A stretch of DNA of 54,609 bases. It comes from Gilvimarinus agarilyticus (GTDB lineage Bacteria > Pseudomonadota > Gammaproteobacteria > Pseudomonadales > Cellvibrionaceae). The translations under genes were made by a program, and so were the position numbers. Below the pieces are notes generated by a model. It did not search any database. It saw only the letters and a list, made by a program, of their open reading frames with translations, and was not told the DNA's origin. The stretch covers positions 1,716,206 to 1,770,814 of the forward strand of contig NZ_JXCJ01000001.1 of the NCBI RefSeq assembly GCF_000832015.1, read 5' to 3'. Position 1 is the stretch's first letter; the number at the start of each line of letters is the position of its first letter. Of the stretch, positions 9,971 to 43,039 are shown in pieces.

Positions 9971-10539
9971 TGAAGCTTGCCACGGACCACATTGCCACCG
10001 ATGCCCTACGGATTTCCCGCTGGGTGGCGCGTGCCCGTGGTGGCGATATCAAGGCATTTGAATACTTGGTTAGCCAGCAGCAAAGCCTGGTGCGCAGTTA
10101 TTTAGCTAAACGCACAGATTACAGCGCCGATGTAGATGACTTAGCCCAGGAAAGCTTTGTACTGGCCTGGCAAAAACTGACAACTTTGCAGGATGACGCC
10201 GCGTTTAGTGGCTGGTTGTTGTCTATTGCGCAAAATCTGTTGCGTAATCACCACCGCAAACAGGCCAGGCTGGCACCCACCGAGCCCGATTTACTGGCGC
10301 AGCTGCTGGATGAACAAGAGCAACAGCACCCAGACGAACAAGAAACCGAGCTAAGCCTGCTGCGGCAATGCTTGCTTAAACTGGATCACTCAGCGCAAAA
10401 AACACTCAGGCTTTATTACCGCGAGGGGTATAGCTTGCAAGAATTGCGTGAGGTTATGGGCGTGGCGCACTCGACGCTCACAATGCGACTAAACCGCTAC
10501 CGAAAAAAGCTGCGCGACTGTATTAACCGAGGTCACTGA
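9970..10539 (+). CDS. ECF-type RNA polymerase sigma factor
   Basis: Sigma-70 family factor of 189 residues. Region 2 (about 20-95) includes VDDLAQESFVLAWQKL and the -10-recognition helix FSGWLLSIAQNLLRNHHRK. Region 4 (about 130-185) includes LRLYYREGYSLQELREVMGV and a helix-turn-helix ending STLTMRLNRYRKKLRDCI. It resembles the Rhodopirellula/Verrucomicrobium sigma group (TIGR02989-like) more than FecI, judged from memory. The start codon overlaps the FAD oxidoreductase stop, and the FecR-LamG gene begins 4 bp after its stop, so sigma and anti-sigma are coupled. Targets are unknown; the surrounding agar genes are the obvious candidates. Confidence 0.9.
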   Translation: MKLATDHIATDALRISRWVARARGGDIKAFEYLVSQQQSLVRSYLAKRTDYSADVDDLAQESFVLAWQKLTTLQDDAAFSGWLLSIAQNLLRNHHRKQARLAPTEPDLLAQLLDEQEQQHPDEQETELSLLRQCLLKLDHSAQKTLRLYYREGYSLQELREVMGVAHSTLTMRLNRYRKKLRDCINRGH

Positions 10540-10543
10540 CACC

Positions 10544-12082
10544 ATGATAAGCCCGACCGATTCACAGCTGATAGAACGCTACCTGGCCGGCGATAAAAAT
10601 GCCCGGCAAGCGCTTATTGAGCGGGTGCAAAACGATGCAGAGTTTAAAGCGCAACTCGCGCAGCAGCGGGATATGCACCGCTTACTGGCTTATTCCCATC
10701 AAGCGAGTTCGGGCGATGCTTTTACCGCGGCCGTATTACAGACAGTGCAGGCCGGGCCTACCGATGCCTCTCGACGCCGTTACGGTTGGTGGGCAACCGC
10801 TTGCGCTTGCTTGTTGGCCTGTGTGGTAGCAGTTTTTTATACCTTAACCACACCCGCCAGCGTGGGCAGTATCAGCAAATTGGCGGGCACCGGGGTGGGT
10901 TACACGCCGGGCCAGAGTATTCTTGCGGGCGAGTTTTATCTAGACACCGGCTACGCCGAAATCACACTGACTAACGGCGTGGTACTGCTGCTGGAGTCGC
11001 CGGCGCGGCTTATGTTTGAAAACGCTGATCGCCTCGTGCTGAATGAAGGCGCTTTGGTTGCCAGGGTGCCGCCCGAGGCGACCGGCTTTGCGGTGGACAC
11101 CCCGAGCGCCAATATTATCGATTTAGGTACCGAGTTTGGTGTGGCGGTGGACGACACCGGTGCCTCTCAGGTGCATGTGCTTGAGGGCGAAGTCAAAGTG
11201 AAGACGCCGGGCTCGAAAGAGTATGAAAACCTTTTTCAGGACGATGCCCGAAGCTTTGATTTAAATCAGCAAATGGCGGTTATCCAAAGTCAACCCAATC
11301 GCTTTATGCGCACCTTGCCGGGGCGGCGCTATCAACAGCCGCAGTATTTGCACTGGTCTTTTGACGATGCAGGCCTTGATCATAGCGCGACGTTCGATTG
11401 CGCAGGCCCAGGTATCGAACAGCAATGCTTTACCGCTCAAGCTCGCACACTGCAAGGCGACAACACACCACCTGCGTTAATTGAGGGTGCTTTTGGTGAG
11501 GCTGTATGGTTTAACGGGGTCGATCAATGGCTGGCTACCGGGTTTCCGGGCATTGGGGGCAATAAACCGCGCACAGTAGCCTTTTGGGTTAAAGTGCCTC
11601 AAGACTTTGCCCCTCACCAGGGGTTTGGCATCCTCAGTTGGGGCTTGGCCGATAAGCTCTCTGCATGGCAAATTTCTGTAAACCCGCTGGATGTCAGTGG
11701 GCCGCTGGGGCGTATCCGGGTGGGTACCAATGAAGCGGAAATAGTTGGCACCACCGACTTGCGCGACAATCAGTGGCACCACGTGGCGATTGTGTTGTTT
11801 GGCGGCGATAAAGCCGACTTGTCGACCCATGTATTGGTTTATATCGATGGTGAATTAGAGCGCAGCTATGGGAAGTCCATAGCGCGGGTTTCTACCGAGC
11901 TCAACCACCCGCAATCCAAACCCTTGATGATGGGGCGTAACATCGCTTTTAACGACCCAAACAACAGCCAAAGAACCAATCGTTTTTTTCGCGGCGGAGT
12001 CGATGAGGTTTACCTTTTTGACACGGCGTTAACCCAGCAGGATATTAAGAAACTGATGCGCACCAATGCCCTGACGCATTAA
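10544..12082 (+). CDS. FecR-domain anti-sigma factor with periplasmic LamG domain
   Basis: Membrane protein of 512 residues. Residues 1-80 are a cytoplasmic anti-sigma-type segment (LIERYLAGDKNARQALIERV). One transmembrane helix lies at about 84-104 (WWATACACLLACVVAVFYTL). The periplasmic FecR domain is at about 120-235, with FYLDTGYAEITLTNGVVLLL, IIDLGTEFGVAVDD and VHVLEGEVKVKT. A LamG/concanavalin-like jelly roll follows at about 310-510 (AVWFNGVDQWLATGFPGIGG, RTVAFWVKVPQ, DNQWHHVAIVLF, GGVDEVYLFDTALTQQDI). The sigma-FecR-LamG arrangement is common in Planctomycetes/Verrucomicrobia and unusual in a gammaproteobacterium. The LamG domain could bind galactan oligosaccharides and release the partner sigma factor; that role is inference. 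Confidence 0.88.
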   Translation: MISPTDSQLIERYLAGDKNARQALIERVQNDAEFKAQLAQQRDMHRLLAYSHQASSGDAFTAAVLQTVQAGPTDASRRRYGWWATACACLLACVVAVFYTLTTPASVGSISKLAGTGVGYTPGQSILAGEFYLDTGYAEITLTNGVVLLLESPARLMFENADRLVLNEGALVARVPPEATGFAVDTPSANIIDLGTEFGVAVDDTGASQVHVLEGEVKVKTPGSKEYENLFQDDARSFDLNQQMAVIQSQPNRFMRTLPGRRYQQPQYLHWSFDDAGLDHSATFDCAGPGIEQQCFTAQARTLQGDNTPPALIEGAFGEAVWFNGVDQWLATGFPGIGGNKPRTVAFWVKVPQDFAPHQGFGILSWGLADKLSAWQISVNPLDVSGPLGRIRVGTNEAEIVGTTDLRDNQWHHVAIVLFGGDKADLSTHVLVYIDGELERSYGKSIARVSTELNHPQSKPLMMGRNIAFNDPNNSQRTNRFFRGGVDEVYLFDTALTQQDIKKLMRTNALTH

Positions 12083-27068: not shown

Positions 27069-30000
27069 TTAGAAGACCATGCGCAGACCTAAGCGGAAGG
27101 TGGTACCCACTTTGTATGCGCTTACGGTACGGTCGGTTGGTGCATCGCCGTCCAATGGGTTGCCCTCTTCCATGGCGACGTAACTAACGCTACCGTCCTC
27201 GCCCACGAGCTGTTCAACTTGCAGCTCGCGGTTGGTGTAGTAAGTGCGGTACAACGCGTCGGTTAAGTTAATGGCCTGGAAGGTCAGATCCATGTTGTCG
27301 TTGATGGCGTAGGTGGCCGACAGGTCAACTGTGTCACGACCTTCGTTCCACAGTGAGCCCTGGAACCAGGTGCGCCCGCGCTGGCCGGTGTTCCAATCGT
27401 TACCTACCAGTGAGTCAGACGAGCCTCGGTAGCTAATGCGAACCTGATGGCCGTCTTGCTCCCAAAACGCGGTTAAGTTGTACGTGTGCTCGGGAGTGTC
27501 GGCAACCGGGTAGGTTGGCAGCAAGCGGTTCGGGTCGATGCTGGAGAAGTCGGCCTCGTATTCACTGTCTTGATAAGTGTAGTTAGCTTGCATGCCCAAC
27601 CCGCTTAAGAAATAACCGGGTAAAAAGTCGTAGGTCTGCTGGTAGCCTAGCTCCAAACCGCGAATTTCGGCGCCTTTACCGTTAACCAGTTTGTTGATAT
27701 TGAACTGGTTACACAGCTGCTCGTAATCCTCGGAGTATGCCAGCGGGCCACCAAAACCGGATTGCGTGGTAAAGCGGATCGGCATACAGCCATCTAAGCC
27801 GCTGTTTGGCTGCGCAGAGTCGGCCAGCATGACCAGGTCATCGGCGCTAAACGTACCTTCTACCTCACGTACGTCGGTGATGTAAGTCTGCGCCGACTCG
27901 GTATCCGTAAAGTTGGTCATGTCTTTATAGAACAGGGCCGCGCTGATCATTGACGTATCGTTGAAGTACCACTCAAGCGACAGGTCCAGGTTGTTGGACT
28001 CCATCGGGTCTAGCTTGGTGTTGTACATGTTAACCGTACCGGGGTTTGATGGCAGGGTGCCCCAGTAAGTTGCCCAAAGCTCGGTAATGCGGAAGCCTGG
28101 GCGCAGCTCATCGATGGCAGGGCGAGTCATGGTTTTTGACAGCGCCATACGACCAATCAGGTTGTCGCTAAACAGATAGTTCAGGTTCAAGCTTGGCAGA
28201 ACGTTTTCGTATGTGTGACTGTTTTCGGTGGCAAAAGAACCGATGGATTTATCCTGCTGGTTGAGCACGGTGTATTGATCGATACTGCCCGAGTCGATGG
28301 TGCCGTCCCACTCGATGTTGGGGCTGGTCAGTGACGAATCCCAACCGTGGTTTCGGCTGGTGCTTACATCTGCGTAACGCCACAAGTTGTTCCATGTGGG
28401 GCGGTAAGCGTATTCGTCTTGGTTAAAGCCAGGCTCTTGTGAGTCGATGGCCCACTGGGCGTACACTGGGTCGTGACAAGGATCTTGCACGCCGTCGCCA
28501 TTGGGGTCGAACATTGGCATAGGCGTCCAGGTGCTTGGATCCGGCCCTGCCGAGGTGTCCCAACCGGTGCCATCAATACGCGAGAATTTATTCTCGTAAG
28601 CCGGGATCTGGTTAAAGCGCTCTGCCGGGTCATTGCTCCAGTTAGAGGGCATGGGGCACTCAGGCAGTGAGGTGTCGCGTAGCTGTAGCAACGTCAACGA
28701 TGAGAATTCTGATTCATCGGCGTTGTCCGGGAAGTCGTGATACACCGCACCCGAGGCGCCTACAGCTTCAACTTCGGTCTCGACGTAACGCACACCGATA
28801 TCACCTGTTAAGCGGTCATCCAGATACGAAAAGTTTAACTTCAGATAAATGGCCGAGGTATCCAGTGTCGTTTCGCGCGTGTTGCTTGGGTCTACGTTGC
28901 GCGACAGCTCCGGGTCGCCTACTACCGTGTTATAGGCCGCATCGACGTCGATGGGTGCCCAGTTTATGCTTGGCAAGCCCAGGGTGCTTAAAAAGTCGTC
29001 GTACGCCAGAGAGTCGTCACGCTGGAACTCTACCGCACGGATGTCCGACAGCGCGCCGCCTGGGATTGACACCGGGTTGCCCGCTGAATCGAAAATAATC
29101 TCAGAGGTGGTGTTAGAGTTGTAGGTATAGTTCTGCTGATCGACGAGTTTTTCACGCTGGCTTACTTTGCCGCCAAACTCGATGGTGGTAATACCGGCAA
29201 AATCTAAATCGTAATCGAAGTCCAATTGAACATTGCTGATGGTGTCTTCTACGGTTACGTCGGCTTCAGAAATGCTACCCAGGTGAAAACTGTTTAAGTC
29301 ATGTGGGTTAAAGCCGGTGTAGGCGGTATTGTCGTCAGAGCCTGGCAAGGGGAGGCCAGTTTCCGGATCGGTGAAGTCTAAGAGATTATCACCAAGATCG
29401 ACGTAGCTGCTGCCAAATACCGGGGCGCACGCATTGGCGTGGCATTGATAGCCGACTGGCTCAATGTCTTGCCCTGCTCCAAACAGAATGTTGGAAGGCA
29501 CTTGCTTCCAGTTTTGCATGTTGGTGTAGCGGCTCGGCAGGCTTTCGGATTTACTGTTGGAGTAGCCGGCCATCGCCGACATGCGGAAGTTGTCGGTAAT
29601 TTCTTGGTCAAAGCGCAGGGTGGCACTGGCGTTTTCTTGTTCATCGCCGCCTTCGGAGCGGGTTATGTCGCCAATGCTATAGCGGTTAACCTGATTGATT
29701 AAGGTAAGAGTGTTGGTATCTACGGTCCACCAATCTTCTTGCGGGTCAGTAAAGCTGGCTACTTGATCGGGGTAGTTTTGGCTCCAGTTTTGGTTTTCGA
29801 TCAGATTCGGGTCGGTACCCATGCGCAGCGAAAAGCCGTCATAGTTTTGCTCGGTGGTCTGATTGGCGTAGGTCGCATCGAAGCTAAGTTCGGTACCATC
29901 AGTAGGCGCCCACTGCAGGCCTAAGGTTGCACCATAGCGCTCACTTTCGTTGTCGAACAGCTCATAGTTAACATTGGTTGGGCTGATGGCCCGAATACCG

Positions 30001-30752
30001 GAAATAATATTGCCATTTTGATCACGGGCAATATTGATATCGCGCGCTTCAAAGTTATGCGCACGGTATTGGTCTTTGCGGTAATCATTGGTTTCAGTGT
30101 AAGCCGTTAAAGCAACACCAAAGGTGTCGTCCAAAAACTTCTTAGAGCCAGCCAGTTGCAGTTTGTAGTTTTCTTTCTCACTAAAGTCGTTATAGCGGCC
30201 CTGAATAGTGGCTGTGTATTCGTCTTCCGCTTTATCCAGAGGGCGAACCGTTACTAGGTTTACGGTAGCGCCGAGTGAGCCTTCATCCATATCAGCGCTA
30301 GGCGTTTTAATTACCTCGAGTTTTGACAGGATATCTGATGAGTACGCGCTTAAATCCACTGCTTGACTGAAGTCAGTAGAAGAGAGCTGTTGACCGTTTA
30401 AGGTAATGTTGTTTTGGTTTGCGCCGGCACCACGCACGGTGATGGTCGAGCCCTCGCCGTCACGGCTCACCACCGATACACCCGTAACACGACCCAAAGC
30501 ATCGGCAATGTTCTGATCGGTGTTCTTACCCATGTCCTCGGAGTTGATCGTGTCCATGATTTGCTGCGAATCGCGCTTGTTGTCCATGGACTTTTGCAGC
30601 GCACCGCGTATACCACGAACCACAACTTCTTCAAGTACGAGCTCTTCGGTGGATTGTTCGGTGTCTGATTGAGCGTAAGCGCCTATGCCGTGGCTGGCCA
30701 GTATGGCAGCCGAAAGCGCGGTCAACTGGAAGCGTTTAGTGATGTTAGACAT
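27069..30752 (-). CDS. Large TonB-dependent receptor
   Basis: Outer-membrane receptor of 1227 residues from ATG 30752, chosen because it follows GAGAGGTCACAG and opens a good signal peptide (MSNITKRFQLTALSAAILA). EEVVVRGIRGALQKSMDNKR is the TonB-box region of the Xanthomonas/Caulobacter type. The plug (about 60-180) carries NIADALGRVTGVSVVSRDGE and ITVRGAGANQNNITLNG. A long barrel ends with the beta-signal FRLGLRMVF. At over 1200 residues it is large, as for receptors importing sizable oligosaccharides. The promoter and operator are just upstream, and the surface lipoprotein follows in the same direction. The cargo (agar or porphyran oligosaccharides) is inferred from context. Confidence 0.94.
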   Translation of the reverse strand: MSNITKRFQLTALSAAILASHGIGAYAQSDTEQSTEELVLEEVVVRGIRGALQKSMDNKRDSQQIMDTINSEDMGKNTDQNIADALGRVTGVSVVSRDGEGSTITVRGAGANQNNITLNGQQLSSTDFSQAVDLSAYSSDILSKLEVIKTPSADMDEGSLGATVNLVTVRPLDKAEDEYTATIQGRYNDFSEKENYKLQLAGSKKFLDDTFGVALTAYTETNDYRKDQYRAHNFEARDINIARDQNGNIISGIRAISPTNVNYELFDNESERYGATLGLQWAPTDGTELSFDATYANQTTEQNYDGFSLRMGTDPNLIENQNWSQNYPDQVASFTDPQEDWWTVDTNTLTLINQVNRYSIGDITRSEGGDEQENASATLRFDQEITDNFRMSAMAGYSNSKSESLPSRYTNMQNWKQVPSNILFGAGQDIEPVGYQCHANACAPVFGSSYVDLGDNLLDFTDPETGLPLPGSDDNTAYTGFNPHDLNSFHLGSISEADVTVEDTISNVQLDFDYDLDFAGITTIEFGGKVSQREKLVDQQNYTYNSNTTSEIIFDSAGNPVSIPGGALSDIRAVEFQRDDSLAYDDFLSTLGLPSINWAPIDVDAAYNTVVGDPELSRNVDPSNTRETTLDTSAIYLKLNFSYLDDRLTGDIGVRYVETEVEAVGASGAVYHDFPDNADESEFSSLTLLQLRDTSLPECPMPSNWSNDPAERFNQIPAYENKFSRIDGTGWDTSAGPDPSTWTPMPMFDPNGDGVQDPCHDPVYAQWAIDSQEPGFNQDEYAYRPTWNNLWRYADVSTSRNHGWDSSLTSPNIEWDGTIDSGSIDQYTVLNQQDKSIGSFATENSHTYENVLPSLNLNYLFSDNLIGRMALSKTMTRPAIDELRPGFRITELWATYWGTLPSNPGTVNMYNTKLDPMESNNLDLSLEWYFNDTSMISAALFYKDMTNFTDTESAQTYITDVREVEGTFSADDLVMLADSAQPNSGLDGCMPIRFTTQSGFGGPLAYSEDYEQLCNQFNINKLVNGKGAEIRGLELGYQQTYDFLPGYFLSGLGMQANYTYQDSEYEADFSSIDPNRLLPTYPVADTPEHTYNLTAFWEQDGHQVRISYRGSSDSLVGNDWNTGQRGRTWFQGSLWNEGRDTVDLSATYAINDNMDLTFQAINLTDALYRTYYTNRELQVEQLVGEDGSVSYVAMEEGNPLDGDAPTDRTVSAYKVGTTFRLGLRMVF

Positions 30753-30870
30753 CTGTGACCTCTCTGATCGTTCATTATTTTTATGCTTTACCGCCAAACC
30801 TATGACGATGCGTAGCAAGTTTTAGGGTGCGGCTCATTTATGCTATCCGCTCTTTTTGTTCCCAAGGTAG

Positions 30871-31106: not shown

Positions 31107-34100
31107 ATGCGTTATAGGCCGCGTTTTCAACTGATCGCCCTTTTGCTGGCGCCTTTTGCCTTTGGGGCTCATACAGAAGGTGCAGGGCACCCCGCCAAAT
31201 CTGGCTCTAAGCTAAAGACTACGCATATGTCGGCGCTGCAAGCGAGCGATGCGGCACAGAAGGCGAGCGCAAGCTTGATGGAGAAACTCGCGCCGGGCAT
31301 TAACCTTCAGCTATGGGCCGGCGACACCCTCATCGACGATCCGGTGGCCCTGAGTATGGATTGGCAGGGCAACGCCTGGGTGACGATTACGAATCGCAGC
31401 AATAACTCTGAATTTGATATTCGCGGGTGGCCGCAATGGCACGCGGACACGCTGTCGTTTACGTCGGTGGCCGAGCGCGGTGAATTTTTAAAGCACTACT
31501 TTGCCGAGTCGAGCAACCTGGGGCCGGACGATGTACCCGATCGCAATAGCAATGGTAAGCATGATTGGCGCGATTTGGCCGTCGTCAAAGAGGAGGTGTT
31601 AAAAGTTTCCGATACCGATGGCGACGGGCGCGCCGATCGGGCGCAAACCGTACTAGAGGACTTTTCAACGCTGGTGAGTGATGTGCTGGGAGGCGTTTAC
31701 TACGATAACGCGACCGATTCGCTGTACTTAACCGTTGCACCCAACGCCTGGCGCGCCAGCGACAGCACCGGAGATGGGTATCTGGATCAAAAAACGTCGC
31801 TAGCCGAGGGCTTTGGCGTGCACATTGGCTTTAGCGGCCACAATATGTCGGGTGTGACTAAAGGCCCCGACGGGCGTATTTACTATGGCATAGGCGATAT
31901 CGGTGCCGATATTACCGACCTGGAAGGCAAGCGCCATAAGCACCCGCACGAGGGGGTGATTGTGCGCAGTGAGCCTGACGGTAGCCACCTTGAGGTATTT
32001 GCGACCGGCCTGCGCAATACTCATGAATTTACCTTCGACAAATACGGTAACCTGATTAGCTCGGATAACGACGGCGACCATGCCGGGGAGTTTGAGCGGT
32101 TGGTATACCTGATCGATGGCTCGGATACCGGCTGGCGCACCCACTGGCAGTTTGGCAAATACACCGACCCCACAAACAACCGCTATAAAGTCTGGACCGA
32201 CGAGGGCTACCACAAAAGCCGGTTTGCCGAGCAGTCGGCATTGATTTTGCCGCCTATCAAACCTTTTTATGGCGGCCCCACCGGGATGGTTTACAACCCA
32301 GGTACGGCGCTCAATGAGACGTGGCAAGATTACTTTTTTTTGGTGCAGTTTACCGGCACGCCCGGTAATTCGGGTATTAATGCCTTTACCCTAGAGCCCG
32401 ATGGTGCCGGCTTTAAGCTTGGCGAAGATAAAACCTTTATGCGCGGCGTTCAGAGCACGGGCCTGGATGTGGGCCCGGACGGCGCACTTTATACGGCCGA
32501 CTGGGTCGATGGGTGGAAAGTTAATAACACCGGTCGTATCTGGAAACTGGATGCCGACACACCGCACCCATTACGAGCGCAAACCCAACAGCTGTTGCAG
32601 CAGTCGTTTAGCGAGCTATCCGCCACACAGTTAACCGCGTATTTATCTCACCCCGATCAGCGCGTGCGCAGTAAAGCGCAGTTTGAGCTGGCCGCGCGCG
32701 GTGATCAGAAAAACCTGATAGCGGCGCTGGCGGGCGAATCGCAACTGGGGCGCATTCACGCCATTTGGGGGGTGGGCCAGTTGGCGCGGCACGACTCACA
32801 GCTTGCGAAACCTTTAATGCCGCTCTTGCAAGACGCCGATGACGAGATTCGCGCACAGGCTGCCAAGGCGCTTGGTGATACCCCTTATCCCGACGCCGAG
32901 CCTGCGTTGCGTGAAAATCTCACCCACCCGAGTGCGCGAGTGCGAATGTTTGCCGCCCAGGCGCTGGGGCGCATTGGCGCGACGTCATCGTTTGCGGCAA
33001 TTGTGGCAATGCTGCAGGACAACAACGACAGTGATGTCTACCTGCGCCAAGCCGGCGCCATTGCCCTGGCACGTTTAGGGCAAGAGCAAGCGTTGGGTGA
33101 GCTAGCCGAGCACCCCTCGGTGGCGGTAAGAGTGGCCGCCGTTATCGCGTTAAACCGGTCGGCAAGCCCAAGGCTTGCGGCGTTTTTACAGGACGACAAC
33201 GAGTATGTGGTAACCAACGCTGCCCGGGCCATCAACGACGACGCTTTTGTTGACGCTGCATTACCGGCACTGGCCGGACTGCTGCCTGAGCCACGCTTTA
33301 GCAACGAGCCTTTGCTGCGCCGCGCGATCAATGCCAATGCTTTTATAGCGGATGCACAAAGTGCGCAGCGGTTGGTGGCCTTTGCTGGTAATAAACGCTA
33401 TTCGGCCGTGGTGCGCGCCGAGGCGCTCAATGCGTTAAGCGTGTGGCAAAAGCCGTCTGTGTACGACAGAGTGAGCGGGCTTTACCGGGGCGAGCGACCC
33501 ACCGAGTCCACGGCGGCGATAGCGGCGCTCGAGCCTGAGTACGCGAGTTTACTTCAGGCCCCCGAGCCCGAGCTGCGCGAGGCGGCCGCCAACGCCGTGG
33601 GCCGTTTGGGGCTCAGTGAGGGCGGCGTTATTCTGGCCGCTTTGGTGCAAAACGACAGCGCGGCCAACGTGCGTCGTGCGGCACTGGAAAACTTACATCG
33701 GTTGGGTTATAGCGAACTAAAAACGGCGGTGTTTCTAGCGCTAAAAGACAGCGCCGAAAGTGTACGCCGCGCCGCGCTGGGCTTGATTCCCGAGTTGGAT
33801 ATCGCCGCTGCCGATAAAGTGCAGATGTACCAGCTGTTACTGCAAAAAGGCAGCTCTGGCGAGCAGCAAGAAACCTATACCGCTCTGGCAAAAGTTCATG
33901 CGCCTGAGGCTGACGCCTTAATTGCCCGGCAGCTGCAATTGTTACTGGATGAGCGTATAGCTCCTGAGGTACAGCTTGAGTTGGTGCAGGCGGCCGGCAC
34001 TAAACAAAGTCTCCAGGTGCAAACATTGTTGCAGGCATATAAGCAATCCAAACCCGTCGGCGATATGACCGCCCAGTATATCGAGACACTGAAAGGCGGC

Positions 34101-34535
34101 GATGCCCATATGGGTAAACTGTTTTTCTTTTACAACACCACGGCTCAGTGTGTTCGCTGTCACGTGATGGGCGATTTTGGCTCACCAGTGGGGCCCGAGC
34201 TTACCGATATCGGTAGCCGATTAAGCCGTTATCAACTCATTGAGGCGATGGTCGCACCGGGAGCGCGGGTAGCCCCGGGGTTTGGTCGCACCACGGTAAC
34301 CCTCACCAGTGGCGAAGTGATAGAGGGGCGCTTTGTCGCGGAGAGCGATACCAGCATCACGGTTGTGACCGACACTGACGACGAAAAAGTCATCCCTAGT
34401 AAGATTATTGCCAAGCAGAGTTTTTCAGGCTCCGGCATGCCGCCTATGGGGCTAATGCTTGAGAAAGAAAACGTTAGGGATATCGTTGAGTTTTTGGCAA
34501 ATCAAAAAGGACAAAAAAACACCGTCGGACACTAA
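31107..34535 (+). CDS. PVC-type dehydrogenase: beta-propeller, HEAT repeats and cytochrome c domain
   Basis: Secreted protein of 1142 residues. A signal-type N-terminus precedes a sorbosone-dehydrogenase-like beta-propeller (about 60-470): VALSMDWQGNAWVTI, VSDTDGDGRADRAQTVLEDF, GVTKGPDGRIYYGIGD, ATGLRNTHEFTFDKYGNLIS, GLDVGPDGALYTADWVDGW. Alpha-helical HEAT-like repeats fill about 480-990. The C-terminal putative heme-binding domain (about 1000-1135) has C1015-V-R-C-H1019, GSPVGPELTDIG and a candidate distal Met in GSGMPPMGLM. This architecture is typical of Planctomycetes/Verrucomicrobia. It probably oxidises a sugar in the periplasm and passes electrons through its own cytochrome. It is the first gene of a four-gene operon; the next gene starts 18 bp downstream. 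Confidence 0.88.
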   Translation: MRYRPRFQLIALLLAPFAFGAHTEGAGHPAKSGSKLKTTHMSALQASDAAQKASASLMEKLAPGINLQLWAGDTLIDDPVALSMDWQGNAWVTITNRSNNSEFDIRGWPQWHADTLSFTSVAERGEFLKHYFAESSNLGPDDVPDRNSNGKHDWRDLAVVKEEVLKVSDTDGDGRADRAQTVLEDFSTLVSDVLGGVYYDNATDSLYLTVAPNAWRASDSTGDGYLDQKTSLAEGFGVHIGFSGHNMSGVTKGPDGRIYYGIGDIGADITDLEGKRHKHPHEGVIVRSEPDGSHLEVFATGLRNTHEFTFDKYGNLISSDNDGDHAGEFERLVYLIDGSDTGWRTHWQFGKYTDPTNNRYKVWTDEGYHKSRFAEQSALILPPIKPFYGGPTGMVYNPGTALNETWQDYFFLVQFTGTPGNSGINAFTLEPDGAGFKLGEDKTFMRGVQSTGLDVGPDGALYTADWVDGWKVNNTGRIWKLDADTPHPLRAQTQQLLQQSFSELSATQLTAYLSHPDQRVRSKAQFELAARGDQKNLIAALAGESQLGRIHAIWGVGQLARHDSQLAKPLMPLLQDADDEIRAQAAKALGDTPYPDAEPALRENLTHPSARVRMFAAQALGRIGATSSFAAIVAMLQDNNDSDVYLRQAGAIALARLGQEQALGELAEHPSVAVRVAAVIALNRSASPRLAAFLQDDNEYVVTNAARAINDDAFVDAALPALAGLLPEPRFSNEPLLRRAINANAFIADAQSAQRLVAFAGNKRYSAVVRAEALNALSVWQKPSVYDRVSGLYRGERPTESTAAIAALEPEYASLLQAPEPELREAAANAVGRLGLSEGGVILAALVQNDSAANVRRAALENLHRLGYSELKTAVFLALKDSAESVRRAALGLIPELDIAAADKVQMYQLLLQKGSSGEQQETYTALAKVHAPEADALIARQLQLLLDERIAPEVQLELVQAAGTKQSLQVQTLLQAYKQSKPVGDMTAQYIETLKGGDAHMGKLFFFYNTTAQCVRCHVMGDFGSPVGPELTDIGSRLSRYQLIEAMVAPGARVAPGFGRTTVTLTSGEVIEGRFVAESDTSITVVTDTDDEKVIPSKIIAKQSFSGSGMPPMGLMLEKENVRDIVEFLANQKGQKNTVGH

Positions 34536-34553
34536 CTGATATTGAGGTGATAC

Positions 34554-35210
34554 ATGAAAACGATAAAAAACCTGGTCACAGCCTTCGCACTGTCTTGCCT
34601 GGCGTTAAGCACCTATGCTCAAGATCCGCTGAATCACAATATTTTTTATATTGATCAAGGTGATGCCGTCAAGCCCTGGGAGCTCAGCCTGCAGTTTGGT
34701 CAGGTGTTATTAGAGAACAAAGCCGGTGCAACGGTAAAGAATAGTTTAGTGGCCGAGCGCGCTACACGCGAAACCGATGGTGATGCGGTGCGCTTCATCT
34801 GGAACAAAAAGAAAGTGCTTACCGAGTGGGGTGGCCAAAACGAAGCCGTCTCTACGGTCAGCTTAATTAACAAAGAAGGCTTCATCGATTTGGCTGAAAT
34901 TAAAGACCAGGCGGCACTGGTGATAGACCTCAAGGTGCTTGAACGACCCAAAGAGCATGTGACCCTCTCGATCGAGAGTAACTGGAACTGGGAGAGCCGG
35001 GCTTCCATCCCACTAAAAAACGTATTACGCAAACTACCTAAAAAAGAATGGGTGAGCCTACCTCTGCCTTTACAATGCTTTAAAGGCGGAGATGTTGACT
35101 TCAGCAAACTCACCTCTATGATGTTGTTGCATACTGACGGTAACCTAGAGCTAGAAATCTCTGGCGTTCGGCTGGCGGCGTTTCCGCCCGAGCAGGTGAC
35201 CTGCAACTAA
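34554..35210 (+). CDS. Secreted ExoP-like galactose-binding domain protein
   Basis: Protein of 218 residues with a signal peptide ending STYA and a GAGGTG ribosome binding site. The mature part is one beta-sandwich. ATRETDGDAVRFIWNKKK, FIDLAEIKDQAALVIDLKVL, LRKLPKKEWVSLPLPLQCF and GNLELEISGVRLA resemble the ExoP galactose-binding-like domain (PF18559) that normally forms the C-terminus of GH3 beta-glucosidases. Here it stands alone. It has no catalytic motif, so it probably binds a sugar or assists the flanking dehydrogenases or the DUF1080 protein. The assignment is by eye. Confidence 0.65.
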   Translation: MKTIKNLVTAFALSCLALSTYAQDPLNHNIFYIDQGDAVKPWELSLQFGQVLLENKAGATVKNSLVAERATRETDGDAVRFIWNKKKVLTEWGGQNEAVSTVSLINKEGFIDLAEIKDQAALVIDLKVLERPKEHVTLSIESNWNWESRASIPLKNVLRKLPKKEWVSLPLPLQCFKGGDVDFSKLTSMMLLHTDGNLELEISGVRLAAFPPEQVTCN

Positions 35211-35231
35211 CAAAACAACAAGGATAAATAG

Positions 35232-35930
35232 ATGCGCAAATCGCTACTTTGCGCCGCACTGCTCAGTGCGGCGGCGAGCCTTTCTGTATCGGCCGATCCG
35301 GTCGATATTACTCACGATCAAAACTTGTGGATGAATGTTTCGTCGTTTGGCGAGGCTCACTGGCTGGGTGGCGAGATACATCTACTTTCGAGCGATAATT
35401 GGTTTCTGCTGACCAAAAAACGCTATCGGGACTTTACCCTGGAGCTTGAGGTTATTGTGCCCGAGGTGGAGGGTGAGTTTATTAACTCAGGTATTATTTT
35501 TCGCGCGCAAACCGAATACTCGGCCGACATAGAGAGTCAGTTTGCTTTCGGTTATCAAGCTGAGGTCGACCCTTCCGATCGCCGCTGGAGCGGCGGTTTG
35601 TACGAGCAGGCGACCCCGCGGCAGTGGTTGTTTCCGGCCCATGCCGAGCGCTCAGCGCCAGGCGATCACCTAAAAGAAAACTATTCGCCCGACTGGACAG
35701 AAGAGAAAGCCACCGCGTTTAAGGCGGGCCAGTGGAACCACTACAAAATTAGCGCCCGTGGGCCCGACATAAAAATCTGGGTGAATGATGTACTAACCAC
35801 CCACGTTAAAGATACTCATTTAAGTGAAGGTTTTATTGGCATTCAGCACCACGGCAGCCAGGGCTTTGCGCAGCGTGGTGATACCGCCTATACCGTTAAA
35901 TTCCGCAATATCTCAATCGAAGAGCACTAA
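35232..35930 (+). CDS. Secreted DUF1080 / 3-keto-disaccharide hydrolase family protein
   Basis: Protein of 232 residues with a signal peptide ending SVSA and an AAGGA ribosome binding site. It matches the DUF1080 concanavalin-like fold, now named 3-keto-disaccharide hydrolase (PF06439): WFLLTKKRYRDFTLELEVIV, NSGIIFRAQ, WSGGLYEQA, WNHYKISARGPDIKIWVNDV, GFIGIQHHGS and VKFRNISIEE. Family members cleave glycosides after C3 has been oxidised to a ketone. Flanking genes encode two secreted dehydrogenases, so a periplasmic oxidise-then-cleave route is a reasonable inference. The next gene starts one base after this stop. Confidence 0.83.
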   Translation: MRKSLLCAALLSAAASLSVSADPVDITHDQNLWMNVSSFGEAHWLGGEIHLLSSDNWFLLTKKRYRDFTLELEVIVPEVEGEFINSGIIFRAQTEYSADIESQFAFGYQAEVDPSDRRWSGGLYEQATPRQWLFPAHAERSAPGDHLKENYSPDWTEEKATAFKAGQWNHYKISARGPDIKIWVNDVLTTHVKDTHLSEGFIGIQHHGSQGFAQRGDTAYTVKFRNISIEEH

Positions 35931-35931
35931 C

Positions 35932-38301
35932 ATGAGCCACCTAAAACTTCTCGTGACCGCCTTAAGCGTGGTGCTTTGTGGCGCAGTTTCGGTAGCGGCT
36001 GAAGAGTCGGACACGGGCTTTAAGGGCGATCGCGACGGTCATGAAATGCGCGATGTTATCCCTAAGCACGAAATCCCCGAAGCCCCGGTACTAAATGTAG
36101 AGCAAGCGCTAAAAAGTTTTAACCTGCAACCTGGGTTTGTGGTGGAGCCTGTCGTATCCGAGCCCAATGTTTTTAATCCGGTAGCCATGAGCTTTGATGC
36201 AAAAGGCCGAATGTGGGTGGCCGAGATGACCACCTATATGCCCGATGTGCGTGGTGAGGGGGAAATGAAGCCTGAGGGTAATATCGCTGTGCTGGAAGAC
36301 ACCGACGGTGATGGTGCGGTGGATAAACGCCGTATTTTCCTTAGCGATATTATCTTACCGCGCACGATTTCACTGGTAGAGGGAGGCATTTTCTACGCGG
36401 ATCAAACATCCCTGTACTTTACCGAGGTGCTGGAAAAAGACGGCGTTCTAACCCCGGGTATTCGTGAGGTGGTGGACCCGAACTATGCCGAGGGCGGCAA
36501 TGTTGAGCACAAACCCAATACCATGCTCTATGGTATCGACAACTGGTATTACAACGCAAAAAGTAACAAAAAATACCAAACCCTACCGCTTACGGCCGAG
36601 CTGCCAGAAGGTAGCGAAGAGATTTACCGCAATCAGTACTGGAAGCTAGTGCGCGCCGAGACAGATTATCGGGGCCAGTGGGGCTTAAGCATGGATGATT
36701 ATGGGCGCCTGTACCATAACGGTAATAGTTCGCCTATTCATGGCGAGTATTTACGGCCAGGCTCGCTCCGCAAAAATCCAGGTTATTGGCCAGAAATGCC
36801 AGCTCACTCTATAGGTGATATTTACGTTTACCCCAGCCGTATGAACCCCGGTATTAACCGCGGTTATATGGAGGGCATGCTGGTAGCCGATGGGCCCGAT
36901 CGCGGCAAGCTTGTGGGGTTCACCGCCGCCAGTGGCAGCCTGGTGTACCGGGGCAGTAACTTCCCGAAAAAGTTCTACGGCATGGGGTTAACCCCAGAGC
37001 CCGCGGCCAATTTAATCAGCGCGCGCTTTATTAATGAAGGGGAGGGGGAGCTTACGGGCAAGCCCGTTTACCCAAAACAAGAGTTGTTTACCTCACAAGA
37101 TGAGCGTTTTCGGCCCGTTAATTTATACAATGCACCCGACGGCACTGTGTACATACTGGATATGTACCACGGTATTTTGCAGCATAAAGAGTTTTTAACC
37201 AGTTACCTTGCCGCGCAAATTGATGACCGTGAGCTGGACAAAAACAATAACACCATGGGGCGCATTTATCGTCTACGCTGGCAGGCCAATGAGGCGGCCA
37301 AAGTGGCCAATTTAGCGTCGGCTAACAACGCCGAGTTGGTTGCCTTACTGGCACACGCTAACGCTTGGCAGCGAGATACCGCGCGTCGCTTATTGATAGA
37401 GCGCAACGCTAAGGCCAGCGCGGCATCGATCCGCAAACAACTTGAACAGTTGCCAGACCCCGTGGGAATCGTGAATAGCTTATGGGCTTTGTACGGCCTG
37501 GGCGAAATCGATCTTGCCACGGTAAAAACCTTTATGGCCAGCGAGAACGACCAGGTGGCCATGGCGGCCGCTGCGGTCGGCGAGGCTCTCCCGGAAAAAG
37601 ACCACAAGGCTTATCACACGCTGTTGCTGAGCCTGGCGCAATCGGGTTACCCGCGCGCGTTACAGGCGGCGGTATCGGTATCGGCCATCAAAGGCGGCAC
37701 CGATGTGTCAAAGCAGGTGTTAGATGCCTATCTTGATAAACCCTACACCCGCGAGGCGGTGATCAGTGGCTTGGGCGACGATGCCGATGCTTTTATCGCC
37801 CGTATTGAGGATGACTACCCTGATGCACAGGTGATGTACGCGCTCAACAATTTAGGCAAAAAACGACAGGATGCCAGCAACCGCGAGCAACTTTCCAAGT
37901 CGGGTAAAGCGCTCTATGACGAGGGCAAAAAACTGTACAACGGTCGCACCGCTTGCGCCGGCTGTCACGGAGCGCACGGCAATGGGGTGCCGGGGCTGGG
38001 GCCAACGTTTTGGAACAGTCAGTGGGTAAGCAATAAAGAGACACTGGCTAAAGTGCTGCTGCACGGCTTAAGCGGCCCAATTTGGGTGGATGTGCACTAC
38101 TGGAATACCCAAGCGGTGATGCCGGGCTTTGCCGCTCGGGCCGATATTAGTGATAAGGACTTGGCCGCTATTGCTACTTACATTCGCAACAGTTGGGGCA
38201 ATACGTTGGATTCTGGCAGTGCCTACACCGAAGCTGAGGTTGCCAAGGTACGCGCTAAAACCGAAGGGCGAGCCACGCCCTACAAAGCAGCAGATTTTTA
38301 A
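35932..38301 (+). CDS. PVC-type dehydrogenase with C-terminal cytochrome c
   Basis: Secreted protein of 789 residues. The frame is open further upstream, but ATG 35932 starts a clear signal peptide (MSHLKLLVTALSVVLCGAVSVAA) one base after the previous stop. The propeller domain (about 70-470) has NPVAMSFDAKGRMWVAEMTTY, VLEDTDGDGAVDKRRIF, WGLSMDDYGRLYHNGNSS and LYNAPDGTVYILDMYHGIL. A helical repeat region spans about 480-640. The class I cytochrome c domain (about 662-760) has C675-A-G-C-H679, PGLGPTF and a Met ligand in AVMPGF near 730. It differs from the first dehydrogenase in cytochrome type. It probably oxidises a sugar and hands electrons to the respiratory chain. It is the last gene of the operon and a strong hairpin follows. 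Confidence 0.88.
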   Translation: MSHLKLLVTALSVVLCGAVSVAAEESDTGFKGDRDGHEMRDVIPKHEIPEAPVLNVEQALKSFNLQPGFVVEPVVSEPNVFNPVAMSFDAKGRMWVAEMTTYMPDVRGEGEMKPEGNIAVLEDTDGDGAVDKRRIFLSDIILPRTISLVEGGIFYADQTSLYFTEVLEKDGVLTPGIREVVDPNYAEGGNVEHKPNTMLYGIDNWYYNAKSNKKYQTLPLTAELPEGSEEIYRNQYWKLVRAETDYRGQWGLSMDDYGRLYHNGNSSPIHGEYLRPGSLRKNPGYWPEMPAHSIGDIYVYPSRMNPGINRGYMEGMLVADGPDRGKLVGFTAASGSLVYRGSNFPKKFYGMGLTPEPAANLISARFINEGEGELTGKPVYPKQELFTSQDERFRPVNLYNAPDGTVYILDMYHGILQHKEFLTSYLAAQIDDRELDKNNNTMGRIYRLRWQANEAAKVANLASANNAELVALLAHANAWQRDTARRLLIERNAKASAASIRKQLEQLPDPVGIVNSLWALYGLGEIDLATVKTFMASENDQVAMAAAAVGEALPEKDHKAYHTLLLSLAQSGYPRALQAAVSVSAIKGGTDVSKQVLDAYLDKPYTREAVISGLGDDADAFIARIEDDYPDAQVMYALNNLGKKRQDASNREQLSKSGKALYDEGKKLYNGRTACAGCHGAHGNGVPGLGPTFWNSQWVSNKETLAKVLLHGLSGPIWVDVHYWNTQAVMPGFAARADISDKDLAAIATYIRNSWGNTLDSGSAYTEAEVAKVRAKTEGRATPYKAADF

Positions 38302-38324: not shown

Positions 38325-38344
38325 ACCCCGCCCGCGGGCGGGGT
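38325..38344. terminator. Bidirectional terminator hairpin
   Basis: A perfect 20-bp GC-rich palindrome (ACCCCGCCCG then CGGGCGGGGT) lies between the convergent dehydrogenase and GH50 genes, with A-rich sequence on its left side giving T's for the minus-strand transcript. Confidence 0.75.
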
Positions 38345-40849: not shown

Positions 40850-43039
40850 GTGAAAGCAACGACAACCCCGGTAACCATCGTCGGTGGTGGGCCCAAAAAG
40901 GTTTTATATACCCTGCAAACCATTAAGCGCATCGGTTTGCTGGATTCGGCCAAAGCGTTAAAAAGCCACAACGCCTGCAAAGCCTGTGGTCTGGGTATGG
41001 GGGGGCAGCGCGGTGGGATGGTGAATGAGAAAGACGAGTTTCCCTCGGTGTGTAATAAAAGTATTCAGGCGCAATCCACCGATATTCAACCGCCTATTCC
41101 CGCCGAGCTGTTTGACCACACGCTTAATGAGTTTAACGAGCTTACCGACCGTGAGCTGGAAACCATGGGGCGGCTTAACACCCCAATTTATAAACCGGCG
41201 GGCAGCGCTAAATACCAGCCGTTAAGCTGGGACGAGGCGCTGACGTTAGCGGCCGAACGCTTCAGCGCGGCGCCGGCCGAGCAGAGTTTTTTTTACGCCT
41301 CGGGGCGCTCGTCGAACGAGGCGGGTTTTTTACTGCAATTAATGGCGCGTTTGTACGGCAGCAATAACGTCACCAACTGTTCGTACTATTGCCATCAGGC
41401 CACTGGGGTGGGGCTGCAAAGCACCCTGGGTACCGGCACCGCTACGGTGGCGCTTGAGGATTTAGCGCTGGCCGATATGGTGTTTGTGATTGGCGCCAAC
41501 CCCGCCTCTAATCACCCGCGCTTTGTGCATCAGCTCAAGGGGGTGCGCGACCGCGGCGGCAAAGTGATGGTTATTAACCCCGCCAAAGAGCCGGGCCTAG
41601 TGAAGTTTGCGGTACCCAAAAGCCCCAAATCTATGCTGGTGGGCGGCACCTGGATTGCCTCGCGCTTTTTGCAGCCCAAAATCGGCTCCGATTTGGCCCT
41701 GTTAACGGCCATGGCAAAAATGCTAGTGGAGCAAAACGCGCACAATGCTGAGTTTGTGCAAAACCATACTCAGGATTTTGCCGCGTACCGCGATTACCTG
41801 GCGGCCTTAGATTTAACCGAGCTGCTCGCGCGATGCGGTTTAACCGAACAAGCCGTGGGTGAGTTGGTGGACGATTATGCCCGCGCTGACAATGTTATCT
41901 TCGCTTGGGGCATGGGTATTACCCACCATCTAAATGGCGCCGATAATGTCGAGGCCATCGCTAACCTTGCCATGCTGCGCGGCATGGTGGGCAAGCCCGG
42001 TGCTGGGCTGTTGCCACTGCGTGGGCACAGTAACGTGCAGGGTATTGGTACCATTGGAGTCAAGCCGGTGCTGGCCGACGACGTATTGCACGCTATCGAG
42101 ACGCATATGGGGGTGAGTTTACCCACGCAAAAAGGTATGGATACATTGGCCTGCTTACGCACGGCCGAGGCCGGACAAATGAGTAACGCCTTAATGATGG
42201 GGGGCAACTTATTTGCCGCCACGCCCGATACCGAGTTTGCCCGTCGCGCGCTGGATGCTGTGGGTTTTAAACTCTACCTCACCACCACCTTAAATCGCGG
42301 CCATTTTAACGGTATGGAAAACAGCGAGGCGTTAATTTTGCCAGTGTGCGCCCGGGATGAAGAGCCGGACAGCACTACGCAAGAATCCATGTTTAACTAT
42401 GTGCGTTTAAGCGATGGCGGTATTACCCGGTTGGATAACGTGCGCTCTGAGGTAAGTATACTGGCTCAGCTGGGTGGGCGTTTACTGCCCGACTCCCCCT
42501 TGGATTTTGCCGCGTTTGAGCAACACGACAAAGTGCGCAAAGCCATTGCCGCTACTATTCCAGGTATGGCGCCCCTGGCCGATATCGGCGCAAGCAAACA
42601 AGAGTTTGTGGTGGGTAACCGCCTGGTGCACAAGCCGGTGTTTAACACGCAAAGCCAGCGTGGGCATTTTAAAACGCACGCCTTGACTCAATCAGCCAAC
42701 GCCGAATACCCATTTTTACTGGCCAGTATTCGCAGTGAGGGGCAGTTTAATTCAATTATTTACGAAGAGTCCGATAGCTATCGCGGTACCAGCCATCGCT
42801 GGTGTGTGTTGATGTCAGAATCCGATTGCCAGACGCTAAGTGTGAGTAAAGGCGATAAAGTGAATATTGTCTCGCCTCAAGGGGAAATGAAAGCCGTAGA
42901 GGTGGTGCCTTTTGATTTGCCTGCCGGTAGCCTGATGGCCTATTACCCCGAAGCTAACGTGCTTATTGGCACCGAGCATGACCCGCGCAGTAAAACACCG
43001 GCGTTTAAATCGGTTCCGGTGGCCGTGTGCCGAGTCTAG
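40850..43039 (+). CDS. YdeP/FdhF-type molybdopterin oxidoreductase
   Basis: Protein of 729 residues of the FdhF/YdeP family (formate-dehydrogenase-like alpha subunit). The GTG start at 40850 follows GGGAG with suitable spacing; no in-frame upstream ATG fits. Features: CKACGLGMGGQRGGMVNE near residue 45, LSWDEALTLAAERF, FYASGRSSNEAGFLLQLMARLYGSNN, NCSYYCHQATGVGL (cofactor-ligand region), VIGANPASNHPRFVHQLK, FAWGMGITHHLNG and the C-terminal bis-MGD-binding domain with SIRSEGQFNSIIYEESDSYRG. The YdeP group is cytoplasmic with an unknown physiological substrate and needs molybdenum cofactor and FdhD. It interrupts the agar genes and its link to galactan metabolism is not evident. Confidence 0.88.
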   Translation: MKATTTPVTIVGGGPKKVLYTLQTIKRIGLLDSAKALKSHNACKACGLGMGGQRGGMVNEKDEFPSVCNKSIQAQSTDIQPPIPAELFDHTLNEFNELTDRELETMGRLNTPIYKPAGSAKYQPLSWDEALTLAAERFSAAPAEQSFFYASGRSSNEAGFLLQLMARLYGSNNVTNCSYYCHQATGVGLQSTLGTGTATVALEDLALADMVFVIGANPASNHPRFVHQLKGVRDRGGKVMVINPAKEPGLVKFAVPKSPKSMLVGGTWIASRFLQPKIGSDLALLTAMAKMLVEQNAHNAEFVQNHTQDFAAYRDYLAALDLTELLARCGLTEQAVGELVDDYARADNVIFAWGMGITHHLNGADNVEAIANLAMLRGMVGKPGAGLLPLRGHSNVQGIGTIGVKPVLADDVLHAIETHMGVSLPTQKGMDTLACLRTAEAGQMSNALMMGGNLFAATPDTEFARRALDAVGFKLYLTTTLNRGHFNGMENSEALILPVCARDEEPDSTTQESMFNYVRLSDGGITRLDNVRSEVSILAQLGGRLLPDSPLDFAAFEQHDKVRKAIAATIPGMAPLADIGASKQEFVVGNRLVHKPVFNTQSQRGHFKTHALTQSANAEYPFLLASIRSEGQFNSIIYEESDSYRGTSHRWCVLMSESDCQTLSVSKGDKVNIVSPQGEMKAVEVVPFDLPAGSLMAYYPEANVLIGTEHDPRSKTPAFKSVPVAVCRV

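Follow-up and report, generated by a model that had tools for sequence, protein, structure and literature searches.

A stretch of 54,609 nucleotides from the genome of Gilvimarinus agarilyticus (hereafter the window, which starts at position 1716206 of contig C1) carries four co-directional genes at 31107-38301, inside a long agar locus. We call them P1 to P4 (Table 1) and find that the unit is a composite. P1, a propeller protein with a haem domain, and P2, a free-standing Exop_C domain, are linked to agar; P3, a DUF1080 protein, and P4, a DUF7133 propeller ending in a cytochrome c, are a separate module. For P3–P4 we propose a periplasmic pair that oxidises and then eliminates, standing beside the agar-linked P1–P2, and we give this proposal a probability of roughly 55%.

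The proposed route would run as follows. P4 would oxidise a secondary alcohol of a glycoside in the periplasm, most likely at C3, and the electrons would pass through its own haem to the respiratory chain. P3 would cleave the 3-keto-glycoside by beta-elimination and hydration, the products being a 3-keto-hexose and either a free sugar or a shortened one. Elsewhere, cytoplasmic Gfo/Idh enzymes would reduce the keto sugar, and in the genome under study the pair shares the agar locus with the second module P1–P2. A preliminary description of this DNA had suggested oxidation at C3 followed by elimination, and for P3–P4 this idea is supported by a conserved gene unit, by fused proteins, by the predicted fold of P3 and by seven loci with Gfo/Idh genes. 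Its further claim of a single agar-specific route of four genes is supported in part at most, as P1–P2 occurs without P3–P4, and P3–P4 occurs without the marker of GH50-type (glycoside hydrolase family 50) agarases and in galactose operons.

The P3–P4 pair and the agar-linked P1–P2 module

The relatives of P4 were examined in 76 loci (L numbers below), that is, the best 80 of 237 relatives less four without a recognised open reading frame (ORF). A DUF1080 gene was found near P4 in 31 of them, 18 times directly upstream in the same orientation, 11 times divergent, once elsewhere in the locus and once fused; the subfamily model behind this count was built from hits shorter than 420 aa, and distant members may escape it. 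Among the marine gammaproteobacterial loci (L054-L073 and L124, with the 36% identical L121 of a Klebsiella bin left out) the count is 17 of 21. The fused case, L073, is one protein of 1190 aa that joins DUF1080, DUF7133 and cytochrome c. Since the order P3–P4 recurs with its small gap in the 18 same-strand loci and fused proteins exist, the arrangement is not a matter of chance.

The same association is seen within the genome under study. Four of its seven DUF1080 hits start at most 5 kb from a DUF7133 hit, a count that includes one below-cut-off DUF7133 hit sharing its chain with one DUF1080 and that was matched in 0 of 20,000 random placements. When only DUF7133 hits above the cut-off are counted, two of seven are this close (33 of 20,000 placements), and without the DUF1080 that shares a chain with the below-cut-off hit it is three of six (1 of 20,000). 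For P1-type proteins the partnership looks looser, since a DUF1080 gene lies within about 5 kb in only 13 of 31 loci, 11 times convergent (31 of 37 places were viewed, with the four copies in agar loci and two partial frames set aside).

The two modules separate when the 144 genomes of the family (G numbers below; G000 is the genome under study) are compared. Counted at an identity of at least 50%, P4 is present in 11 of them (G000, G002, G003, G004, G005, G007 with two copies, G026, G031, G039, G048 and G119). Among the named relatives of P4 found in the wider search, that of G. chinensis is 92% and that of G. polysaccharolyticus 83% identical. As marker for GH50-type agarases we used the Agarase_CBM domain PF17992, which is found in 28 of the 144 genomes and together with P4 in five. 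The marker is thus present in 5/11 genomes with P4 and in 23/133 others (Fisher p 0.039, uncorrected for kinship), a modest excess, and P3–P4 is not confined to genomes that have it. As to the other module, PF17992 is present in every one of the seven genomes that have a full-length P2 orthologue of at least 40% identity (p 5e-6), and in all four that have P1 at 69% identity or more, both thresholds having been picked after the lists were seen. Weaker P2 matches (E 1e-4 or better) are found in 111 of the 144 genomes, and a P1-like protein of at least 44% identity is found in 29, nine of them with PF17992 (p 0.07). The P2 homologues of G097 and G098 adjoin other genes (DUF5060, GH3, GH43-like), and there the link to agar is therefore one of genome and not of locus.

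The gene order agrees with two modules. In Marinimicrobium agarilyticum (G026, L155) P1, P2 and a GH50 gene stand together without P3–P4, whose homologue is on another contig, and locus L154 of G006 groups P2 with GH50 while P1, P3 and P4 are all missing there. An ancestral agar operon of all four genes was therefore rejected. In G000, G005 and G007 the pair is located between P2 and GH50. The P4 proteins of these three genomes form one clade (support 100/99), apart from the gal-operon copies described next, in a tree that took in 26 of the 51 rows of the P4 alignment A3.

The galactose operons give a first clue to the chemistry. In L060 and L040 the genes galE-like, galT, galK, DUF1080, P4 and FdhF/YdeP follow each other on one strand; L059 has galK, DUF1080, P4 and FdhF/YdeP, likewise on one strand, at a contig end. 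The pair begins 75-85 bp after galK and 2 bp separate DUF1080 from P4. These three loci are one syntenic locus and therefore count as one event; two of the three copies belong to the GH50-negative genomes G002 and G003.

A second clue comes from seven loci (L044, L065-L068, L070 and L124) in which two Gfo/Idh genes, with an Nramp-like transporter gene between them, lie downstream of P4. DUF1080 was found in five of them and none was found in L068 and L124; in L068 about 2.4 kb lie between P4 and the Gfo/Idh genes. The 3-keto sugars which arise in 3-keto-glycoside chemistry are reduced to the plain sugar in other systems (PMC10628242, PMC13273386; here and below, papers are cited for what the accessible parts of their texts state). 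The Gfo/Idh genes would thus fit a keto-sugar reductase step, and by analogy we infer that they act in this way. As to the Nramp-like gene between them (L065:11368-15091 and the six other loci), it is conceivable that its product carries sugar rather than metal.

Two further contexts were seen. One has no galactan character: in locus L047 of G018, a more distant pair comes before the genes of an arabinofuranosidase-type protein and of a GH3 enzyme which ends in Exop_C. In Catenovulum agarivorans DS-2 the pair stands beside a GH50 and a porphyranase-type gene.

Single relatives were also observed in other settings. The genome under study encodes a 1098-aa chain of DUF1080, cytochrome c and a weak DUF7133/GSDH propeller (L143:10434-13730, C1 near 1140 kb), adjoined by a second DUF1080 gene, and a 1371-aa DUF7133-type protein beside a GH10-type gene (L144:7451-13481, C1 near 3115 kb), which suggests use on other glycans. 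Catenovulum adriaticum carries a P4 homologue (41%) on its large plasmid pCadTS8_1 (L226), in the company of sulfatase and GH88 genes; the annotation of this stretch shows no DUF1080. On plasmid p1 of Ketogulonicigenium vulgare (L227) a P4-like propeller annotated as 'dehydrogenase' (32% over 72% of the query) comes directly after a separate c-type cytochrome gene. In a Paraglaciecola bin the P4 homologue is split into two frames of 201 and 552 aa (L070:5820-8177), perhaps an assembly error.

Predicted folds and active sites

The AlphaFold2 (AF2) model of P3 has a mean predicted local distance difference test score (pLDDT) of 92.9. Its best fold match is BT3469 (4jqt; E 3.6e-15, TMq 0.69), followed by the carbohydrate-binding module CBM66 of a levanase. 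The structures 8v31 (1.4e-8), 8rr2 (2.4e-8) and 8tda (2.7e-8) match with TMq 0.49-0.55, and 9fbe and BT2157 (3osd) are among the matches too; unrelated lectin-like sandwiches match more weakly. The titles of 8v31, 8tda, 8rr2 and 9fbe name a 3-keto-2-hydroxy-glucal hydratase or a 3-keto-glycoside eliminase/hydratase, and 8rr2 and 9fbe were solved with 3-keto ligands. Sequence comparison points the same way: with the broad profile A6, both 8rr2 and 3osd are found at an E value near 6e-16. P3 is thus predicted to fold like the solved 3-keto-glycoside eliminase/hydratases.

The histidine of a Q-x-H motif (His207 in P3) is kept in 29 of the 29 rows of alignment A5 and in 16 of the 17 rows of A6. 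A Bacteroides lyase with the exchange H275N is deficient in hydration (PMC13273386). The Q-x-H motif falls on position 250 of the 3osd chain, in a short alignment piece which is non-significant alone. We propose that His207 would be the counterpart of His275, an assignment which assumes an offset from 250 to 275. For the DUF1080 family, a figure of PMC9765024 marks three putative active-site positions. The sole exception in A6 is a DUF1080 protein of the genome under study, which is encoded convergently with a P1 paralogue (56% identical; L142:9330-13947, C1 near 120 kb); a search of solved structures with its single sequence gave no match at E 0.01.

P4 (AF2 model, pLDDT 90.7) matches, with modest scores, hedgehog-interacting protein, an AA12 pyranose dehydrogenase and the Thermus glucose dehydrogenase (2ism); its model also matches the cytochrome domain of a nitrite reductase, and AA12 and 2ism are the matches to sugar dehydrogenases. 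We compared the propeller with the site of pyrroloquinoline quinone (PQQ), where we take the roles of the residues (His, Arg, Lys, R-x-R) from soluble glucose dehydrogenase. HHalign places His193 of P4 on the histidine of Escherichia coli YliI and Arg392 and Arg394 on its R-I-R; Arg247 was matched by eye only, because the global alignment with YliI is of low quality across the central part of the propeller. Among the 51 rows of A3, His193 is kept in 51, Arg247 in 50, Arg394 in 50 and Arg392 in 40. Glu192, Asn196 and Gln249 are invariant as is His193, and Met730 is found in 50 rows. P4 thus appears to be a propeller of the glucose dehydrogenase type with part of the PQQ site, as judged from model and alignment. 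P1 aligned to YliI keeps the histidine and an R-N pair and is without the R-x-R, which makes P1 as a working dehydrogenase the weakest link. We use the word dehydrogenase for P1 and P4 on the strength of fold and haem; neither protein matches PF07995 (GSDH) at E 0.1.

Substrate and alternative explanations

Agarose consists of alternating 3-linked beta-D-galactose and 4-linked 3,6-anhydro-L-galactose. In agarose and in neoagaro- and kappa-carrageenan oligosaccharides, galactose carries a glycosidic bond at O3, and the C3 of the other residue belongs to the anhydro bridge. Agarose and neoagaro-oligosaccharides therefore have no free hydroxyl at C3, and oxidation at this carbon is impossible there. 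Of the oligosaccharides that had been put forward as test substrates, those of the neoagaro and kappa-carrageenan type are, by their standard structures, chemically unsuitable. A free C3 hydroxyl is present on terminal galactose and on the L-galactose-6-sulfate of porphyran. The likeliest substrates would thus be oligosaccharides with a terminal beta-D-galactose, as left after GH117, or porphyran pieces ending in L-galactose-6-sulfate, and the gene context in C. agarivorans DS-2 fits either. The units of agarose are described in PMC5943477, where P. hydrolytica uses a GH2 enzyme once GH117 has removed the anhydrogalactose. The pair would replace or complement an exo-galactosidase.

With regard to the substrate only, and compatible with the proposed chemistry, P3–P4 could be a general system for lactose-like galactosides without any special part in agar breakdown, which in three Gilvimarinus genomes was inserted incidentally into the agar locus, between P2 and GH50. 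The GH50 marker is missing from six of the 11 genomes with P4, GH50-negative genomes hold two of the three gal-operon copies, and P1–P2–GH50 and P2–GH50 stand without the pair in G026 and G006. Against an incidental insertion, the agar-locus copies are one supported clade with the same gene order, so that the placement has persisted, and the pair of C. agarivorans DS-2 is also beside a GH50 and a porphyranase-type gene. We regard this general galactoside system as a serious possibility, if short of an even chance.

A number of observations weigh against P3–P4 as an oxidise-then-eliminate pair. The fold relatives of P4 oxidise C1 of aldoses and are not known to act at C3. Searched by sequence among solved structures, the P4 profile finds cytochrome domains only and no propeller. 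The position of the PQQ-site lysine is alanine in P4, and pqqE (TIGR02109) is over its cut-off in none of 13 genomes (11 with P4 and two without; best 62 against 381 bits), where 14 control genomes were likewise all below the cut-off, so that the search has no positive control. PQQ, if used, would have to be imported, and with the lysine position lost and the site partial we rejected PQQ as the established cofactor as too simple a view. In 45 of the 76 P4 loci no DUF1080 gene of the P3 subfamily was found, none is annotated in the K. vulgare stretch, whose gene table is incomplete, and the L142 protein lacks the Q-x-H histidine. A Gfo/Idh gene like that of L065 is in the fetched stretch of nine loci and missing from 67 of the 76, and none was seen next to the operon of the window or the gal operons. 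A LacC-type gene (PF13618), which marks the known lactose 3-dehydrogenase LacABC, is present somewhere in nine of the 11 genomes with P4, including the genome under study (a single match, G000:C1:3748616, far from the operon); another oxidant may therefore serve the DUF1080 proteins. It speaks for the pair, on the other hand, that no LacC-type gene was found in G002 and G003, which carry it in gal operons. A last point against is that a hydrolytic route seems to be present as well, since the agar locus also holds genes for a galactokinase, a GH117-like protein and a GH2 enzyme.

P4 could instead act at C1 of aldoses like YliI or soluble glucose dehydrogenase and turn the reducing end of released galactose or of oligosaccharides into lactones, with P3 as a binding protein or acting on another substrate. 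The nearest enzyme folds (AA12 and the Thermus enzyme), the HHalign link to YliI and the position of the pair beside galactose genes in one syntenic locus all speak for such an aldose dehydrogenase. What favours C3 instead is that P4 is coupled, and in places fused, to DUF1080 (a 3-keto family) and that Gfo/Idh genes lie downstream of it; P4 is also without the PF07995 match, and we consider action at C1 unlikely. Least probable is that P3 is a glycosidase or a carbohydrate-binding protein which needs no oxidation, with P4 carrying electrons or acting elsewhere: DUF1080 has been linked to xanthan and the Thermogutta proteins proposed to hydrolyse its backbone (PMC5673643), THTE_1561 has been named an endo-xanthanase/lichenase (PMC9007349), the CBM66 of levanase is second among the fold matches and the 45 loci without DUF1080 fit as well, yet DUF1080 is often adjacent and sometimes fused to P4, the Q-x-H histidine is in every row of A5 and the matched structures include those with 3-keto ligands.

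Operon anatomy, surrounding locus and known systems

The preliminary description had given a one-directional layout of four genes with gaps of 18 bp (P1–P2), 21 bp (P2–P3) and 1 bp (P3–P4), two propellers with different haem domains and signal sequences on all four proteins. The ORFs and their junctions confirm the layout, and the two haem domains, TIGR02603 in P1 and Cytochrom_C in P4, are both above their cut-offs. A signal-like hydrophobic N-terminal stretch is seen in all four proteins, with no later membrane-like stretch, as judged by hydropathy only. The family assignments are clear for DUF7133 (P1 89.4 and P4 273.1 bits, cut-off 27), for PF06439 (3keto-disac_hyd) in P3 (112.2 bits, cut-off 26.8) and for PF00034 in P4 (45.9 bits, cut-off 21.3). 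For TIGR02604 (cut-off 122.2) P4 scores 179 bits and P1 is just below with 119.6. Each DUF7133 protein has a single CxxCH, at residue 1015 in P1 and 675 in P4. The longest frame of P4 (35824-38301) begins with GTG and would overlap P3; the in-frame ATG at 35932 is the likely start.

On the + strand no terminator-like site was found in the intergenic gaps; the five found lie inside P1 and P3. Upstream of P1 no sigma-70-like promoter was found on this strand, and its two promoter-like sites are inside P1 and P2 (four in all, against 6.0 expected from shuffles). P2 is probably carbohydrate-binding, and a search of solved structures with the single protein gave no match at E 0.1. The earlier term galactose-binding for Exop_C names a fold only. 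Because the domain also ends the GH3 enzyme of L047, it gives no galactose specificity, and we rejected a specificity read from the name.

Table 1. Features of the operon and its neighbours (window coordinates)
Feature	Position	Strand	Basis
TonB-dependent receptor (TIGR01782), divergent from operon	27069..30818	-	profiles
P1: DUF7133 propeller, HEAT and C-terminal TIGR02603 haem domain, 1142 aa	31107..34535	+	ORF, Pfam/NCBIfam profiles
P1 TIGR02603 haem-binding domain, residues 998-1132	34098..34502	+	76.9 bits, cut-off 68.15
P2: free-standing Exop_C domain (PF18559), 218 aa	34554..35210	+	66.3 bits, cut-off 26.1
P3: DUF1080 / 3-keto-glycoside hydrolase (eliminase/hydratase) family (PF06439), 232 aa	35232..35930	+	profile, AF2 model
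P3 His207 (Q-x-H motif)	35850..35852	+	alignment conservation
P4: DUF7133 propeller, helical HEAT-like part and C-terminal cytochrome c, 789 aa	35932..38301	+	profiles, AF2 model
P4 DUF7133 propeller, residues 56-449	36097..37278	+	profile; HHalign to E. coli YliI
P4 cytochrome c domain, residues 663-755; CAGCH 675-679	37918..38196	+	profile, alignment
Terminator-like inverted repeat, T tail on - strand, 8 pairs (7 G-C)	38325..38344	.	between convergent P4 and GH50
GH50-type beta-agarase (Agarase_CBM domain), convergent with P4	38362..40680	-	profile
FdhF/YdeP-family molybdopterin oxidoreductase	40850..43039	+	NCBIfam profile

In the surrounding locus, a homologue (57%) of the TonB-dependent receptor is near P2 and GH50 in G006. 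The FdhF/YdeP gene is near P4 in the agar locus of G000 and G007 and was not seen in G005; in L040, L059 and L060, the gal operons, its homologues immediately follow P4. PF17992 is found at G000:C1:1661632, 1693833, 1728446 and 1756229. At 9970-12082 of the window an extracytoplasmic function (ECF) sigma factor and then a FecR protein with Laminin_G_3 directly precede a GH50 gene; the latter protein is possibly a sugar-sensing anti-sigma. Upstream of the window are galK (C1 1677849), preceded by two genes which resemble galE and galT in size, order and N-termini, as well as GH2 and sulfatase genes. Mandelate-racemase-type and aldehyde-dehydrogenase genes in the same region would fit the use of anhydrogalactose, and an upstream protein which Pfam assigns to GH43 may be a GH117.

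The propeller-haem architecture common to P1 and P4 is that of the PVC-type heme-binding CxxCH proteins (TIGR02604/TIGR02603). For planctomycete-specific cytochromes (PSCyt) a role in carbohydrate use with action on small sugars has been suggested in PMC5615132, which also states, in its accessible part, that nothing is known of the functions of the PSCyt and PSD proteins; by our own reading these are families other than P1 and P4. Our literature search, mostly without subscription journals, returned no paper on PVC-type heme-binding proteins, Piru_Ver_Nterm, DUF7133 or PF23500, and an oxidative agar route is absent from the titles and abstract openings it covered.

That sugars can be cleaved by oxidation and elimination, rather than by hydrolysis, has been recognised only recently. 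If P4 is the oxidant, the PVC-type heme-binding proteins, a large unexplained family, would acquire a function; the harvest of energy would start in the periplasm, and an oxidative branch would be added to the breakdown of red-algal galactan. More tentatively, DUF7133-cytochrome c proteins at large might be unrecognised periplasmic glycoside 3-dehydrogenases, which would use a cofactor other than self-made PQQ and deliver electrons straight into cytochrome c. Together with DUF1080 they would be a non-hydrolytic system across Gammaproteobacteria, Verrucomicrobiota and Planctomycetota, recruited in Gilvimarinus for red-algal galactan. We offer this wider view as a doubtful, if attractive, extension.

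Among known oxidants of galactosides, LacA is a GMC-type flavoprotein. The nearest precedent is the lactose system of Caulobacter crescentus, in which the periplasmic DUF1080 protein CCNA_01705 is proposed to act with LacABC (PMC9007349). As proposed here, a galactoside is oxidised in the periplasm and a DUF1080 step is proposed to follow; the oxidant there has further subunits, whereas the one we propose would join a propeller and a cytochrome c in a single protein. YliI, soluble glucose dehydrogenase and AA12 have the propeller fold that is predicted for P4, which by alignment keeps part of their His and Arg residues, and P4 differs from them in having neither a PF07995 match nor the PQQ-site lysine, with no pqqE over cut-off. 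The Bacteroides eliminase/hydratase route (BT2157 and related proteins) resembles P3 in its DUF1080 enzyme, in the fold and in the Q-x-H motif. Its dehydrogenase is a soluble NAD-type Gfo/Idh enzyme and not a secreted haem protein such as P4. The Agrobacterium O-glycoside beta-eliminase AtOGE likewise eliminates after oxidation at C3 (PMC10628242), but is a Mn2+ TIM-barrel where P3 is a DUF1080 beta-sandwich. We therefore put P3–P4 forward as a candidate extension of the 3-keto-glycoside route, by a kind of oxidant not yet tied to such chemistry.

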